Part shown: piece after piece, positions 2,537-54,052 of the stretch
Layout of the letters: the number at the start of each line of letters is the position of its first letter
How positions within the stretch are numbered: the first letter of the stretch is position 1
Origin: Gammaproteobacteria bacterium
GTDB taxonomy: Bacteria > Pseudomonadota > Gammaproteobacteria > HK1
Length of the DNA stretch: 64,000 nt
Assembly: GCA_021773795.1 (NCBI GenBank)
Contig: JAJFJT010000003.1
Coordinates: 62,001 to 126,000 of the forward strand
Direction of reading: 5' to 3'
Notes under the pieces: generated by a model
Told to the model about the DNA's origin: nothing
The model's input: the letters and a program-made list of their open reading frames with translations, nothing else
The model's database searches: none
Translations under genes and position numbers: made by a program

Positions 2537-3309
2537 GTTTTCTGCTGCAATTGGGGCAGGTGCTGATGGATACGATCCGCGATGTACTGCCTATTCTGGC
2601 GATCATCGCTGGTTTTCAGTTCCTTGTTATCCGTCGCCCGATTCCCAATCTGAAGCGAGTGGCCCTGGGTGTGGTGTATGTCATTCTCGGGCTGGCGCTA
2701 TTTCTCAAGGGGCTGGAGCAGGCGTTGTTTCCACTGGGGAAATTAATGGCCCAGCAACTGACCGATCCGAAATTTCTCCACAGCATCACCGGAAGGGCGG
2801 TCGAGCAACTCGGCTGGGGGGATTATTACTGGGTCTACGTTTTTGCCTTTGCCATCGGCTTTTCCACCACCATCGCCGAGCCGTCGTTGCTGGCGGTGGC
2901 TATCAAGGCGCAAGAGGTGTCTGGTGGGGCAATTAGCGTCAGGGGGCTGCGCGTCTCCGTTGCTCTGGGTGTTGCCGTAGGCATTACCCTGGGATGTTTT
3001 CGTATCGTCAGTGGAACCCCGTTATATCTCTATATCATCGCCGGTTATATTCTGGTGATGGTGCAGACGCTCTTTGTACCGCGCGGGATCATTGCGCTTG
3101 CCTACGATTCTGGCGGGGTCACCACTTCCACCGTTACCGTGCCTATAGTTGCCGCCCTGGGGCTTGGGCTGGCAACCCACGTGCCGGGACGCAGCCCGGT
3201 ACTGGATGGTTTTGGCCTCATTGCTTTTGCAAGTTTGTTTCCCATCATGGGGGTGCTGGCCTATGCCCAGCTTAGCCAGTGGCGCCATGAGCGGAAGCTA
3301 TCGAAATAA
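2533..3309 (+). CDS. DUF1538 integral membrane protein (second of tandem pair)
   Basis: 258-residue paralogue of the preceding protein with the same order of motifs: [16 protein letters not shown], then [15 protein letters not shown] and [12 protein letters not shown]. It has a longer loop after the third hydrophobic segment. The GTG start at 2533 lies inside the stop of the upstream gene, a GTGA overlap. The pair looks like an old duplication kept as two subunits; in other bacteria DUF1538 also occurs as a double-domain protein. A 140-bp inverted-repeat element separates it from the PII-like gene, so that gene may be transcribed partly on its own. Confidence 0.85.
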
Positions 3310-3449
3310 AGGTGCCTCTAGAAATACAAGTTTCCAGGCAAGACAAGGCATGTTAAAAAAGTTGAGCACGGCATCTATTTGATATGTGAGCGAAACTTTT
3401 CTGCGAGAAACGCCGTATTGCGACGATAGTGTATTTCTAGAGGTGCTCA
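3310..3449. repeat. MITE-like element, family A copy 1
   Basis: An element of ~140 bp with imperfect terminal inverted repeats of ~18 bp (GGTGCCTCTAGAAATACA at the left, its complement at the right). Its interior segments AGGCAAGACAAGGCAT, GCGAAACTTTT and CCGTATTGCGACGA recur at 11204-11346 and 51299-51444. It has no coding capacity and sits between the second DUF1538 gene and the PII-like gene. Confidence 0.8.
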
Positions 3450-11184: not shown

Positions 11185-11203
11185 GGACGGAATATAACAG
11201 CTT

Positions 11204-11346
11204 GAGGGCGCCTCTAGAGATTTAAGTTTTCATGCAAGACAAGGTATGAAAAAAACAGTTAAGCGCAGCATATGATTGATATGTAAGCGAAACTTTTTCG
11301 AGAGATACCGTATTGCGACGATAGTGTATTTTTTGAGATGCCCTCG
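11204..11346. repeat. MITE-like element, family A copy 2
   Basis: Second copy of the ~140-bp element seen at 3310-3449, with termini GAGGGCGCCTCTAGAGATT and GAGATGCCCTC and the same interior (GCAAGACAAGGTATG, GTAAGCGAAACTTTTT, CCGTATTGCGACGATAGTG). It lies between the end of gluQ and the start of the aspartic protease gene and has more changes at the right terminus than the other copies. Confidence 0.8.
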
Positions 11347-25913: not shown

Positions 25914-26010
25914 GATGATGGCTTCAGGCTTTGAGCCCGCGCATGATAAAGGGGAAGGCGGGATTGTTGCCAGAGTTTGTCTGGCTACCCGAATATATTC
26001 CCATGGTACT

Positions 26011-26178
26011 AAGGAATCTCTAATCTATTCGTGGACTCGTATCTTGCGTCCAAAAGGCCCATCTTTAGTCGTTGCTGCTCTTCGCAATAGGTTGACTCAT
26101 GTGCGATCAGCGCCCCAAAGCTGAACATTTTAAATCACAAACGACTTCGCCCGGAATAAATCAGAGCTTCCCTAAAGG
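26011..26178. repeat. MITE-like element, family B copy 1
   Basis: About 168 bp with imperfect terminal inverted repeats (GGAATCTCTAATCTATTC at the left; GAATAAATCAGAGCTTCC at the right). The interior segments ACTCGTATCTTGCG, CTTCGCAATAG and GACTTCGCCC recur in the copy at 43702-43866. It fills most of the gap between divergent mtaD and mtnA and ends at the mtnA ribosome-binding site, so its insertion must have reshaped both promoters. Confidence 0.8.
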
Positions 26179-43006: not shown

Positions 43007-43703
43007 GGGTCGTTTAATTGTAGCGCTGGATTTTCCTTCCGTAGATCAGGCACTAGCTATGGCAGATCGCCTGGACCCGGCCCGTTGTCGGGTGAAGGTA
43101 GGCAAGGAATTGTTTAGCCGCGGTGGCCCCGAGGTTATTGGAGCACTACGAGCTCACGGTTTTGAGATATTTCTGGATCTCAAGTTCCACGATATTCCCA
43201 ATACAGTTGCTGCCGCCTGTCGCGCTGCCGCTGATCTTGGGGTATGGATGATCAATGTTCATGCCCTCGGTGGCCGCAAGATGATGGCCGCGGCACGTGG
43301 CGCGCTGGCCGACTATCAAAATGTGCCCTTATTGATTGCCGTGACGGTGCTCACCAGTCTTGATACCGAAGATCTGGCTGAGGTGGGCATTTCATCGACA
43401 CCAGAGCAGATGGTCATGCGTCTGGCTCGGTTAGCATATGAGGCGGGTATGGACGGGGTGGTGTGTTCAGCACGGGAGCTAGCCCCCTTGCGTGCCGCAC
43501 TGCCGGCGGATTTTCTCACCGTCACCCCGGGGATTCGCCCCCAAGGTGCAGCGGTTGCAGATCAAAAACGCGTCATGTCGCCGGGCGATGCGATACAGGC
43601 CGGGGCCAGCTATCTGGTGGTGGGTCGGCCCGTGACCGCGGCCAAGCAACCGTTGCAGGCGCTGGCCGCTATTGAGGCGGAGATAGGGAGTGTTGTTGCC
43701 TAA
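42999..43703 (+). CDS. pyrF: Orotidine 5'-phosphate decarboxylase
   Basis: 234 residues, starting inside the end of lapB. Substrate and catalytic residues are in [23 protein letters not shown] (the Lys-Asp-Asp array) and [10 protein letters not shown]. Last step of UMP synthesis. The lapA-lapB-pyrF order is conserved in gammaproteobacteria. Its TAA stop lies at the left end of a family B repeat. Confidence 0.96.
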
Positions 43704-43866
43704 GGAAGCTCTCATCTACTCGTGAACTCGTATCTTGCGCCCAAAATACCCGGATTTGTCGTTACTGAATCTTCGCAATAGCCAGCTATTACGTGCGACC
43801 AGCACCTCAAATCCAGACATTTTGAATTGCAATCTACTTCGCCCAGAATAAATTCAGAGGCTCCCT
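43702..43866. repeat. MITE-like element, family B copy 2
   Basis: About 165 bp related to 26011-26178, with ends GGAAGCTCTCATCTACTC and GAATAAATTCAGAGGCTCC. The interior has ACTCGTATCTTGCGCCC, CTTCGCAATAG and CTACTTCGCCC. It overlaps the pyrF stop and abuts the family D element that runs to argA. The two elements together fill the whole 325-base space between the convergent genes. Confidence 0.8.
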
Positions 43867-50155: not shown

Positions 50156-50854
50156 TCAGGGAAGGATATAAGTGCGTTCCAGAATCTGTCGGGTGAAGGT
50201 GGTGCGCAGATAAAAGCCCCGTGGTAGTAGCCAGGTCGGTTGCCCCTCTGTACCACTGCCGCGGCGCAGGCTGCGGGCATTGGCCCCCTTGGGTCGAATC
50301 TGCAGGTAGACTCCGTGGTGTGCCGTTATTTCCTCAATTTTCCCGAGTGTTACAAGATCCATTAACTCCTCCCAGTCTTGCCTGAGCGCGGCCTCCTCCA
50401 ACTCATTGGGTGACCACAGCAATGGCGTAGCAATGCGGCGATTGGCTACCGGCATGCCCCGTGGGCCCGCAATAGGAATCCATAATACCCGGGCCATCTT
50501 GCGGCGCAGATAGGACCCTTCCCAGTACACTCCGTCCTCTCCGGAGAGTGCCACCGGACAGACATAGGTGCTTTCCAAAGGCTGCCCTGCAAGGCTGATG
50601 GGCAGGGTTTTTAATTCGACACCGATGGACTGAAAATCAGGTTCCGGCAGTGATGAGGCAGTGGCTCCAAGCACACCCTCCAATAGCTGCCCGGCCCAAC
50701 CCTTGGCACGACGGTTTTCCCTCGGAGTGGCTTGTTGATAGCGCTGAGCCAGTTCACCGAGGCTAAGCCCGGCAATGGCCTGGCTACGGGCCATTAGCTC
50801 AGATTCATCCCCGGGGGGCGGGCTTGGAAAGAGAGGAGCTTCGGCCACCCTCAA
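50156..50854 (-). CDS. mutH: DNA mismatch repair endonuclease MutH
   Basis: 232 residues. The family core is visible: RRAKGWAGQLLEGVLGATASSLPEPDFQSIGVELKTLPI gives the catalytic Glu and the Asp-x-Glu-x-Lys set, with STYVCPVALSGEDG and LRRKMARVLWIPI after it. It nicks the unmethylated strand at hemimethylated GATC, directed by MutL. Presence of MutH implies Dam methylation and a gammaproteobacterium. Its start overlaps the stop of the ThiL N-domain ORF by four bases, an association I do not know from other genomes. Confidence 0.93.
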   Translation of the reverse strand: MRVAEAPLFPSPPPGDESELMARSQAIAGLSLGELAQRYQQATPRENRRAKGWAGQLLEGVLGATASSLPEPDFQSIGVELKTLPISLAGQPLESTYVCPVALSGEDGVYWEGSYLRRKMARVLWIPIAGPRGMPVANRRIATPLLWSPNELEEAALRQDWEELMDLVTLGKIEEITAHHGVYLQIRPKGANARSLRRGSGTEGQPTWLLPRGFYLRTTFTRQILERTYILP

Positions 50855-51300
50855 GTCTGCTGGTCGGTTACGCTGCCTTCATCACGAACCAGGCCGTGGA
50901 CGGCGAGAACTGCATTTAGCGGACCACTGGTGGTATCCCCCCCAACCAACTGTAATCCGCATTCCTTACAGGCTTGCAGTAGGTGAGTGCTGAAGGTATC
51001 CAGCCAGCCTTCATCGATTTCCGGCAGGCACAGGGCGAGGGTAGCCCAGACGGGTCGGGCATTTTTGGCCTTGAGTTGTTGTCGGCCCTCGGCAACCAGT
51101 TGAGAGGCAAAGTCAGCGGCATTAACGGTAACCAGTTGTGGCTCGGCGCTATTCTGGCTGCTCAGGGCACTGATCATGAGGTGTCCCGGCGGAGCTTGTA
51201 GTACGGCAGCATCGTCACCGACATCTACGACAACGCCACTACGCCGGGTACTCGATGGCCTAAAGAATCGCTCGATAAGGGAAAATTCTTCCAGTGGCAT
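50851..51300 (-). CDS. Stand-alone ThiL N-terminal domain (split/duplicate thiamine-monophosphate kinase)
   Basis: 149 residues that align with the first ~145 of E. coli ThiL: EFSLIERFF at the start, VDVGDDAAVLQAPPG (Mg-binding GDDxA), WATLALCLPEIDEGWLDTF and QLVGGDTTSGPL. Two motifs are lost: the STDTLVxGxHF segment reads SALSSQNSAEPQ and NxSDxAAMG reads NAADFASQLVAEG. The missing motifs are those retained by the other thiL gene at 52562-53461. It ends at the N-domain boundary. Its ATG abuts a family A repeat whose end supplies an AGAGG seven bases upstream. It is coupled to mutH by a four-base overlap. It may be a partner subunit, a regulator or a relic. Confidence 0.8.
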   Translation of the reverse strand: MPLEEFSLIERFFRPSSTRRSGVVVDVGDDAAVLQAPPGHLMISALSSQNSAEPQLVTVNAADFASQLVAEGRQQLKAKNARPVWATLALCLPEIDEGWLDTFSTHLLQACKECGLQLVGGDTTSGPLNAVLAVHGLVRDEGSVTDQQT

Positions 51301-51444
51301 GAGGGCGCCTCTAAAAATTCAAGATTCCAGGCAAGACAAGGCATGAGTAAAAAGTTGAGTGCAGCATATGCTTGATATGTAAGCGAAACTTTTTTGAGAA
51401 AAACGCCGTATTGCGACGAATATTGTGTTTTTAGAGGTGCCCAT
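51299..51444. repeat. MITE-like element, family A copy 3
   Basis: About 145 bp, ends GAGGGCGCCTCTAAAAATTC and TTTTTAGAGGTGCCCAT, interior as in copies 1 and 2 (CCAGGCAAGACAAGGCATG, GTAAGCGAAACTTTTTTGAG, CGCCGTATTGCGACGA). It separates the lytic transglycosylase gene from the ThiL N-domain ORF and touches that ORF's start codon. Confidence 0.82.
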
Positions 51445-51446
51445 GA

Positions 51447-52031
51447 CTACGAGGTGCGCCGGTAACTGCGGTAATAATCCAGCACCTTGCGCACATAGTT
51501 TTGAGTTTCGGGATAGGGGGGGATTTTGTTGCCGTAACGGATAACTGCATTTTCGCCGGCGTTGTAGGCCGCCAGGGCAAGGCGGACGTTGCGAAAGCGC
51601 GTGATCAGGTCGCGCAGATAGCGCACCCCGCCGTCAAGATTTGCTGCGGGATCTCGGCGATTGCTAACCCCATATCGGCTCGCTGTTCCGGGCATGAGTT
51701 GCATTAGTCCTACCGCTCCAGCTCGCGACACCGCCTTGGCATCGTAGGCTGATTCAGCGGTCACCACCGCATGTACCAGGGCTTTATCCATGCGGTAGCG
51801 TCTGGCGGTACGTTCGATTAGCGGGGTGTAGCGTTTGCGATTGGCGCGGCTCCAGTGGATCCCTTTGGGCACCCAGCCCTTCCAGGTGCGCACGATGGCA
51901 TGGTAGCCAGGGCCCAGGGGGCGGTCAGAGAGGTGTACGACGCCATTGGCATCGGTGAATTTGTAGATGTCGCCCCAAGCCGCGGAAAGCGGTGAAAGGA
52001 GGACTAATAGAAGCAGTAAGCGAGATGGCAT
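51447..52031 (-). CDS. Lytic transglycosylase, SLT domain with DUF4124 start
   Basis: 194 residues. Signal peptide (LLLLLVLLSPLSAAWG), a DUF4124-like strand (DIYKFTDANGVVHLSDRP), then an SLT domain (about 70-185). The catalytic Glu lies in VVTAESAYDAKAVSRAGAVGLMQLMP, and AAYNAGENAV with YPETQNYVRKVLDYY closes the fold. It cleaves peptidoglycan strands in the periplasm with formation of 1,6-anhydro-MurNAc, the substrate class recycled by AmpD and MupP in this window. Confidence 0.92.
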   Translation of the reverse strand: MPSRLLLLLVLLSPLSAAWGDIYKFTDANGVVHLSDRPLGPGYHAIVRTWKGWVPKGIHWSRANRKRYTPLIERTARRYRMDKALVHAVVTAESAYDAKAVSRAGAVGLMQLMPGTASRYGVSNRRDPAANLDGGVRYLRDLITRFRNVRLALAAYNAGENAVIRYGNKIPPYPETQNYVRKVLDYYRSYRRTS

Positions 52032-52065: not shown

Positions 52066-52608
52066 TTATAGCGGCAAATTACCGCTATTCTGCAGCCACT
52101 GGGCCAGACCCTGTACCACTAGCCAGGCCAAGGCCCCTGCAAGTACATCGTCGAGCATGATACCAAGTCCTCCCGGCACCCGTTGGTCCAGCAGTGAAAT
52201 TGGCCATGGTTTAAGGATGTCGAAAAAGCGAAAGGCGACAAAACCGACTGGCAGCCAGATCCAGCCAGTAGGCGCAGCGCACATGGTGATGAGATAGCCC
52301 GCAATTTCATCCCAGACAATGGCAGGATGGTCGTGAACTTTCAGGCGCTGAGCGGTGACCCCACAAAGCCAGATTCCCACGACAATGCTTAGCGCGATGA
52401 CTGCGAGATAGGGGTAGAGGGGGAGTGGCCGCAGGGTGAGATAGATGAGCACACCCACCAGGGTGCCCGCGGTACCCGGAGCGTGAGGAGCGAGGCCGCT
52501 CCCAAAACCACAGGCGAGCAGGTACGCGGGGTGTTCTCGGAGCAACTGAAAAGTGGGTTGTTTAGGAAAAATGTTGGTATGCCTGACCGGGATGGAAGGG
52601 GTTAGCAT
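52066..52608 (-). CDS. pgpA: Phosphatidylglycerophosphatase A
   Basis: 180 residues from the ATG at 52608; the frame is open to 52680. FGSGLAPHAPGTAGTLVGV, HDHPAIVWDEIAGYLITM and FRFFDILKPWPISLLDQRVPGGLGIMLDDVLAG are PgpA signatures, on a four-helix membrane protein. It dephosphorylates PGP to phosphatidylglycerol. The chosen start overlaps thiL by 47 bases, which suggests coupled translation. thiL-pgpA order is standard. Confidence 0.93.
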   Translation of the reverse strand: MLTPSIPVRHTNIFPKQPTFQLLREHPAYLLACGFGSGLAPHAPGTAGTLVGVLIYLTLRPLPLYPYLAVIALSIVVGIWLCGVTAQRLKVHDHPAIVWDEIAGYLITMCAAPTGWIWLPVGFVAFRFFDILKPWPISLLDQRVPGGLGIMLDDVLAGALAWLVVQGLAQWLQNSGNLPL

Positions 52609-53461
52609 TCGGATCCTGACAGCGTAGCCCGGGTTTTGTTTCGATGACGCCGACGCGATGAACGGCACAATTGATGGCATTCATAGCGCTTTCTATGTGT
52701 ACCTGCTGCTCCGGTGGGGCGGTAAAGCAGAGTTCATAATCATCCCCGGCACTAAGGGCGAGTTTCCATGCCTGTTGTTGGGGGAGAGCGTTGCGGCAGG
52801 CCGCTGACAGGGGCAGGGCGGCTACCTGCAACGTGGCCCCAACGGTGCTGGCCTGCAGGATATGGCCAAGATCACCCACCAGTCCATCGGAGAGGTCGAT
52901 GGCGGCGGAGGCGATATCCCGCAGGGCTAATCCAGCGGCAATACGTGGCGTGGGGTGGCTGTAGCGACGTTCTAACCAGGCCGTTTCTTTGGCATTCAGG
53001 TTCAGGTTTTGTTGCATGGCCTGGATGGCCAGGCCCGCATCGCCCAAGGTGCCGGTGACATAGATACCGTCACCCACCTGTGCTCCTCGGCGGCAGAGGG
53101 CACCATCGACGGGTACCTCGCCCCAGATTTCAATGCTGACACTGAGCGCACCGGGTTGTATCAGGGTGGTGCCCATGGCAACGGAGTGTAGCTCTGCGAG
53201 TTCCACGAGACCCCGATGAAAGTCCTGCAACCAGGTTTCATCGTCGGGGTGTGGCAGGGTGAGCGCCAGATTCAGCCAGCGGGGTCTGGCACCCATGGCC
53301 GCCATGTCACTGAGATTGACCGCCAGGCTGCGATAGCCAAGGGCCGCTGGCACGAAGGTGTGGGGGAAGTGCACCCCCGCCACCAGGGCATCCATGGATA
53401 CCGCCCATTGCCTATCCGGTGGCAGTCGATGGCTTCTAGCAGGCTGCTGAAAAACCCTCAT
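52562..53461 (-). CDS. thiL: Thiamine-monophosphate kinase, N-terminally truncated
   Basis: 299 residues aligning with E. coli ThiL from about residue 38 to the end. The first ~37 residues, including GDDxA, are replaced by eight codons from a repeat element that also holds the start codon (53461). Retained motifs: SMDALVAGVHF, LAVNLSDMAAMGARPRW, IYVTGTLGDAGLA, AIDLSDGL, and SAGDDYELCF. The GGDTTxGP motif is degraded to AMGTTLIQPGA. The frame is otherwise open and the C-terminal domain well conserved, so selection seems to persist. The enzyme makes thiamine pyrophosphate. No ribosome site precedes the ATG. See the N-domain ORF at 50851-51300. Confidence 0.85.
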   Translation of the reverse strand: MRVFQQPARSHRLPPDRQWAVSMDALVAGVHFPHTFVPAALGYRSLAVNLSDMAAMGARPRWLNLALTLPHPDDETWLQDFHRGLVELAELHSVAMGTTLIQPGALSVSIEIWGEVPVDGALCRRGAQVGDGIYVTGTLGDAGLAIQAMQQNLNLNAKETAWLERRYSHPTPRIAAGLALRDIASAAIDLSDGLVGDLGHILQASTVGATLQVAALPLSAACRNALPQQQAWKLALSAGDDYELCFTAPPEQQVHIESAMNAINCAVHRVGVIETKPGLRCQDPNANPFHPGQAYQHFS

Positions 53462-53582
53462 ACGGCACCATACGGCGTTAAAAATCGGCTCAAAATGCTC
53501 ATTTACGATCTGTAAACTCCGCTTTTTCGCGAATTTTTGCCTTGTCTGGCACTCGCATGAACCCTTTTCAACAGCCTGCTAG
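53436..53582. mobile_element. MITE-like element, family C, inserted at the thiL 5' end
   Basis: 147 bp with 17-bp terminal inverted repeats differing at one base (TAGCAGGCTGCTGAAAA; right end TTTTCAACAGCCTGCTA), flanked by CTAG on both sides. The interior includes GCATACGG-like and AATTTTTGCCTTGTCTGGC segments. It has no ORF. It occupies the place of the nusB-thiL junction and of the missing first codons of thiL. Confidence 0.88.
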
Positions 53583-53605: not shown

Positions 53606-54052
53606 TCAGTCACTTTTGTCGGCGTTTGCTTCCAGATTGCGATGCAGTTTATCGAGCACGCCGTTGACGTATTTGTGGGCTCCGGCGGCGCCAAAGTCCT
53701 TGGCTAATTCTATCGCCTCGTTGATGACGACGCGCCAGGGTACGTCCTGGCGAAAACGTAATTCATAGGTGGCGATGCGCAGGATGGCCCGTTCTACCGG
53801 ATTGAGTTGTTCCACCGAGCGATCGAGGCAGGCCTCGAGCAAGGGATCGATCTCTCCGAGTTTTTCAGGAAGATTGGTGAAAATGTCCTGGAAGTATGGG
53901 ATATCGGCCTTCTTCATGCCGTCATCTTCCAGGAACTGAGCCTCTATGGTCAGCGTCCCCTGGCCCGTACTTTGCCACTGATAAAGGGCCTGCATGGCAG
54001 AACGCCGGGCGCGTCGGCGGGCGCCAGCGGATACACGTGGGGCATCAGTCAC
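53606..54052 (-). CDS. nusB: Transcription antitermination factor NusB
   Basis: 148 residues, all helical. RRRARRSAMQALYQWQSTGQ at the N-terminus (boxA RNA-binding arginines) and ILRIATYELRFRQDVPWRVVINEAIELAKDFG at the C-terminus are the family hallmarks. With NusE it binds boxA in rRNA transcripts. The gene overlaps ribH by eight bases. The usual close nusB-thiL junction is broken by an inserted repeat. Confidence 0.96.
   Translation of the reverse strand: MTDAPRVSAGARRRARRSAMQALYQWQSTGQGTLTIEAQFLEDDGMKKADIPYFQDIFTNLPEKLGEIDPLLEACLDRSVEQLNPVERAILRIATYELRFRQDVPWRVVINEAIELAKDFGAAGAHKYVNGVLDKLHRNLEANADKSD

Follow-up and report, generated by a model that had tools for sequence, protein, structure and literature searches.

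Complementary loss of ATP-side and TMP-side residues suggests a ThiL enzyme divided between two genes in Gammaproteobacteria

We analysed a 64,000-nucleotide stretch of a gammaproteobacterial contig (JAJFJT010000003.1, positions 62,001 to 126,000), here called the window. On its minus strand, nusB (53606–54052; TIGR01951) is followed by a 147-bp dispersed repeat (53436–53582) and a short thiL gene, thiL-A (52562–53461). Downstream lie pgpA (52066–52680; PF04608), listed with a start that overlaps thiL-A, a lytic transglycosylase gene (51447–52031; PF01464) and a second thiL gene, thiL-B (50851–51300), which encodes a free N-domain of 149 amino acids. The end of thiL-B overlaps mutH (50156–50854; TIGR02248) by 4 bases (50851–50854), likewise at loci L059 and L060, and this overlap suggests that the two genes are translationally coupled. 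A second dispersed repeat, unrelated to the 147-bp element, lies immediately before the thiL-B ATG (51303–51440) and has two further copies in the window, near 3306–3446 and 11200–11341. The gap between the transglycosylase gene and thiL-B measures 146 bp in the window versus 11–12 bp in L059 and L060, and each of the two thiL genes has a repeat at its start in the window genome. Elsewhere in the window, a 52-bp direct repeat occurs at 26009–26060 and 43700–43751 (87% identical, 17.7 kb apart).

ThiL-A matched the ThiL profile TIGR01379 at 262.8 bits and so passes the cut-off of 184.15 bits on its own, though over profile positions 33–320 only. ThiL-B matched the same profile over positions 1–142, as well as PF00586. 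Taken alone, this copy falls outside ThiL: its 73.8 bits are below the cut-off, it has no C-domain, and Asp47, Asp75 and Asp211 are mostly gone from copies of its type. Residues are numbered by the ThiL of genome G030, which coincides with Pseudomonas aeruginosa numbering at the residues named. Motif and column tables showed that helix alpha1, the GDD loop and GGDTT are gone from ThiL-A, which has kept Asp47, NLSD with Asp75, DLSDGL with Asp211 and the C-domain. ThiL-B has kept EFSLI, VGDDAA and VGGDTT and has lost Asp47 and NLSD with Asp75. The pair shares with ThiL, a member of the PurM/AIRS superfamily, the fold family, the catalytic residues and the nusB-pgpA neighbourhood, and together the two copies hold the conserved active-site residues. 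From these motifs we infer that ThiL-A is the TMP-binding subunit and ThiL-B the ATP-binding subunit.

We compared this division with published ThiL structures. The bacterial structures that these papers compare are two-fold homodimers whose interface holds two sites (PMC13254938, PMC6416309), whereas in the window genome the ATP and TMP sides lie on separate genes. In P. aeruginosa ThiL, the two ligands belong to different protomers, one coordinating AMP-PNP and the other TMP; helix alpha1, strands beta5 and beta4 and Thr123 make up the pocket for adenine, and the ribose is bound through the backbone amines of Gly28 and Gly121 (PMC13254938). The metal ligands are Asp30, Asp47, Asp75 and Asp211 (PMC13254938). 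In Acinetobacter baumannii ThiL, the TMP site comes exclusively from one subunit, between its two domains (PMC6416309). The set kept in B corresponds to the ATP side, namely alpha1, the Gly28–Asp30 loop, Trp85 and Leu88 (assigned to beta4 by sequence position) and Gly120–Thr123. The first of the four metal ligands is kept in B and the other three in A. In sequence, the A/B partition of residues coincides with the published division between ATP protomer and TMP protomer. It thus seems that a symmetric two-site dimer has turned into an asymmetric one with a single complete site, in which B would hold ATP and A would hold TMP. Monomer structure prediction gave low confidence, with a pLDDT of 46 for B and 37 for A.

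The survey covered 38 relatives, then 17 genomes of the window's order and then a class sample of 370 gammaproteobacterial genomes; 323 of these gave a match to ThiL at E 1e-35. The class-sample rows inspected singly were the best-scoring ones and, in two follow-ups, those of 57 and of 73 genomes, apart from 38 with E of about 1e-95 to 3e-97. Low-scoring ThiL rows split over frames or contigs were kept outside the counts (for example G071, G142, G098, G164, G287 and G173). Also dropped beforehand were the drafts G269 and G333, which had no ThiL-like main hit, L137, which duplicates a gene in L123, and, from the column counts, the partial B of G007. Most of the compared genomes are draft assemblies.

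A-type ThiL was present in 17/17 genomes of the window's order. Beyond the order we observed it in f2 (G017, G166), f43 (G058, G191, G288, G385), f126 (G141, G246, G386, G387) and f65 (G080), which gives 28 genomes and five gammaproteobacterial families among those inspected. A B copy was found in 27 of the 28, complete in 26 and truncated by the end of a contig in G007; it was not found in the remaining A genome, G385, which is 79% complete. The 26 genomes yielded 27 B sequences, since G013 has two. Its two B genes are nearly identical and lie about 4 kb apart on the single contig (L052, 3123–3953 and 7077–7907). In most f1 genomes at most a few kb separate the A and B genes; the distance is about 34 kb in G015 and about 20 kb in G246, and in G006, G386, f2, f43 and f65 the two lie on separate contigs. 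For f2, f43, f65 and G006, this separation means that co-expression is not implied. A search of open-access papers found no earlier description of a split or paralogous ThiL.

Contig ends or frameshifts can cut a gene, and some look-alikes were indeed artefacts of this kind: G234, in which thiL is cut by a contig end, and G328, in which the gene runs to the contig end, were rejected as split-ThiL genomes. Against an assembly or annotation artefact as the general explanation, 28 genomes show the same cut with matching compensating residues, among them G004, G013 and G015, whose assemblies consist of one contig each (5.1–5.7 Mb). We regard such an artefact as extremely improbable.

We aligned 53 full-length gammaproteobacterial ThiL sequences with the 28 A and 27 B sequences. 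Across the 53 ThiL, 44 columns of the N-domain reach a conservation of 90% or more. At a loss threshold of 30% or less, A has lost 13 of these columns and B 11, and no column is lost from both (P = 0.011, Fisher test against chance overlap; the sequences are related, and the value is a guide only). At a threshold of 40%, 16 columns were lost in A, 15 in B and again none in both (P = 1.6e-4, Fisher test, likewise only a guide given kinship). All 28 A sequences keep Asp47, His54, Ser74, Asp75, Asp211, Ser213, Asp214, Asp262 and Asp263, and all 27 B sequences keep Glu5, Phe6, Asp29, Asp30, Gly120, Gly121 and Asp122. Remnants of the ATP side in A were few (Asp29 and Gly120 in 2/28 each, Gly121 in 2/28, Asp30 in 5/28, Asp122 in 9/28), and some of them are perhaps chance alignments. 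Thr123, present in 41/53 normal ThiL, is a threonine in 7/28 A. Asp47 remained in 1/27 B, Asp75 in 0/27 and Asp211 in 3/27, and the C-domain was missing in 22/27. Column 75 of ThiL-B most often carries Arg in place of Asp (11/27), which may perhaps fill the lost metal site.

Both genes are under purifying selection. The NG86 dN/dS values were 0.126–0.348 for A and 0.087–0.432 for B (13 genome pairs each; several dS values exceed 1, which makes the estimates rough).

Could ThiL-A by itself be a working homodimer that binds ATP in another way, with ThiL-B a leftover or a protein with an unrelated or regulatory role? Copy A does have the TMP side, most of the metal ligands and a score above the ThiL cut-off. 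However, the ATP-side columns lost in A are kept by B, the main residues in every sequence, and B has lost columns that A keeps. B is also under purifying selection and accompanies A in nearly every genome. A role of B unrelated to ATP binding does not predict this complementary pattern, and we consider the A-only homodimer improbable.

We also assessed the thiamine pathway around the two genes. Thiamine pyrophosphokinase (TPK, TIGR01378) was absent from all 28 split genomes in a profile search. ThiE, which makes TMP, had a match in 26 of the 28, over the cut-off in 23 and weak in G006; it was not found in G005 and G385 among the genomes searched. Other AIRS hits that we checked were HypE and PurM in G000, HypE in G006 and SelD in G004. 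The genomes of family f51 (G066, G292, G196) offer a contrast: TPK was present in 3/3, and their ThiL-like proteins have lost the catalytic Asp. We set these proteins apart from the A and B types, as they fit neither type and occur with TPK. At the three f51 loci (L079, L080 and L081, respectively), Asp is replaced by Asn or His in G196, and more is lost in G066 and G292. In f51, judging from these sequences, TPK possibly replaced ThiL.

The f51 genes lend some credit to an explanation in which both thiL genes of the split genomes are also decaying and thiamine pyrophosphate is obtained otherwise, by uptake or through an unrecognised kinase; each copy alone does lack residues that are strictly conserved in ThiL. 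This is difficult to reconcile with dN/dS values well below 1 for both genes, with catalytic residues that are invariant within each half, with the absence of TPK from the 28 genomes and with the identity of the other AIRS hits as HypE, PurM and SelD. Decay of both genes is in our judgement very improbable.

The sequences also include intermediate forms. Five B copies are full-length (G006, G008, G009, G246 and G386); they retain the C-domain, and SDGL and GDDYEL are degenerate in all five. The A copy of G006 has a vestigial GDD and that of G008 has GND. Full-length B copies with broken motifs and a vestigial GDD in A are the expected remains of a stepwise complementary decay after duplication.

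In quick free trees, the A copies fell in four places (f1 with f126, f2, f43 and f65). Holding all A copies together gave a higher likelihood than the free search and was not rejected (P = 0.968, AU test), and the B copies lay on one side of a branch (SH-aLRT 90). A single origin of the split is the simpler reading. It is less than likely, in our estimate, that the split arose repeatedly and independently, each time dividing an ATP half from a TMP half and with the ATP partner shedding its C-domain. Were the origin repeated, a predictable path would lead from symmetric homodimers with sites at the interface to obligate heterodimers with one site.

We then considered the start of thiL-A and the repeat beside it. 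The 147-bp element with inverted ends described earlier at 53436–53582 is real: 17 of 18 terminal bases match, and CTAG stands at both ends. Its own genome (36 contigs, 2.56 Mb) contains 17 matches when the element itself is counted, 4 of them nearly full length at 87–100% identity, and it is therefore not a chance structure. CTAG occurs at both ends in two of the four near-full copies (the window and L004); the other two have CTAG/CTAA and CTAA/CACC. Inverted ends and several dispersed copies, two of the features of a MITE, are both present, and the element shares with MITE-type repeats its shortness and the lack of a long ORF of its own.

The present ATG of thiL-A (53459–53461, minus strand) lies inside the element, and the first eight codons of the ORF (MRVFQQPA) are element sequence, as the preliminary description had reported. 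We also agree that no Shine-Dalgarno-like sequence is visible by eye before this ATG. That it is the only usable start does not hold: a second in-frame ATG at 53395–53393 (residue 23, ...WAVS-ATG-GAT...) is kept in both sister genomes, and non-ATG starts also exist. We joined the window's own flanks to reconstruct the empty site. This yielded a GTG (53611–53613, minus strand) that overlaps the nusB stop (GTGACTGA), followed by the tail VTDQRASRSTSRSHRLPPDRQWAVSMD. A corresponding GTG start is present in the sister genome G002 (locus L060; GTGACTAG), and on these two grounds we take the GTG to be the ancestral start. With the element in place, the GTG frame terminates at a TAA inside it. A TAAATGA in the element opens a frame of 14 codons, and the TGA that closes this frame overlaps the present ATG (ATGA). 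Because the ancestral frame is cut off by the element, we infer that the element now supplies the start codon and first residues of thiL in the window genome. Translation of thiL today by re-initiation at the ATGA overlap is plausible from the sequence.

The short N-terminus adjoins the repeat, which carries its ATG. The preliminary description proposed that the insertion replaced the normal thiL N-terminus and may have forced the retention of the second N-domain copy. The same account had named an equally truncated start in element-free relatives as the observation that would speak against it. This is what we found at the nusB junction of the two sister genomes of the same genus, both MAGs (G001, OFTM67; G002, OFTM98), which lack the element and have an equally short thiL. 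The tail of the empty site contains neither EFxLI nor GDD, so that removal of the element restores no ThiL N-terminus. Element-free sisters that are equally short, together with this empty site, indicate that the insertion hit an already shortened gene, and the presence of truncated ThiL in the whole order and four further families, with a separate B gene in every genome but G385, indicates that the split is older than the insertion. Sequence comparison thus places the insertion after the shortening of thiL, and truncation by the repeat is hardly credible. In the window genome this ordinary MITE-like insertion changes only the start of thiL-A. The preliminary description was right that the second N-domain copy is important.

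Overall, our data suggest that A and B very likely work as an obligate heterodimer that has a single active site and arose by complementary decay of a duplicated homodimer. In this scheme, thiL would have been duplicated in an ancestor and the two copies would have decayed in complementary ways. Copy A would retain only the TMP side, with the metal ligands Asp47, Asp75 and Asp211 and the C-domain. Copy B would retain only the ATP side, with helix alpha1, the GDD loop and its metal ligand Asp30, the Trp85 region and GGDTT, and would usually have shed the C-domain. The two would then depend on each other as a heterodimer whose single complete site makes thiamine pyrophosphate, and the 147-bp repeat would have arrived later. 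The complex, its single site and its activity are predicted from sequence.

A comparable change is described for trypanosomatid deoxyhypusine synthase, in which a homomeric enzyme likewise became a required complex of two diverged paralogs (PMC3663545). That case concerns another enzyme and lineage, and there a catalytically impaired subunit is activated by a dead one (PMC3663545). In ThiL, by contrast, the loss would be reciprocal and run along the two substrate half-sites, with a whole domain gone in one partner. Within the PurM superfamily a further parallel exists.

PurL (FGAM synthetase) is an internal pseudo-dimer of PurM-like halves, one of whose two sites is degenerate. The split ThiL would likewise be a PurM-superfamily dimer, but the PurL halves are fused in one chain and ThiL-A and ThiL-B are encoded by separate genes.

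The important feature of this locus is that one gene carries the ATP side of ThiL and another the TMP side, a variation on a known enzyme for which the sequence support is strong. If this division is correct, current annotation conceals it: copy A passes the ThiL cut-off despite its missing ATP half, B is left as an orphan domain, and pathway calls made from a ThiL hit alone would miss a required partner. With these intermediates, full-length B with broken motifs and A with a vestigial GDD, the complementary decay of a homodimer could be tested directly on a small enzyme. ThiL produces vitamin B1 in its active form, and work cited in PMC6416309 found the enzyme to be essential in A. baumannii. 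If the division is correct, no fewer than five bacterial families would rely for this step on ThiL as an obligate heterodimer that has one site instead of two.
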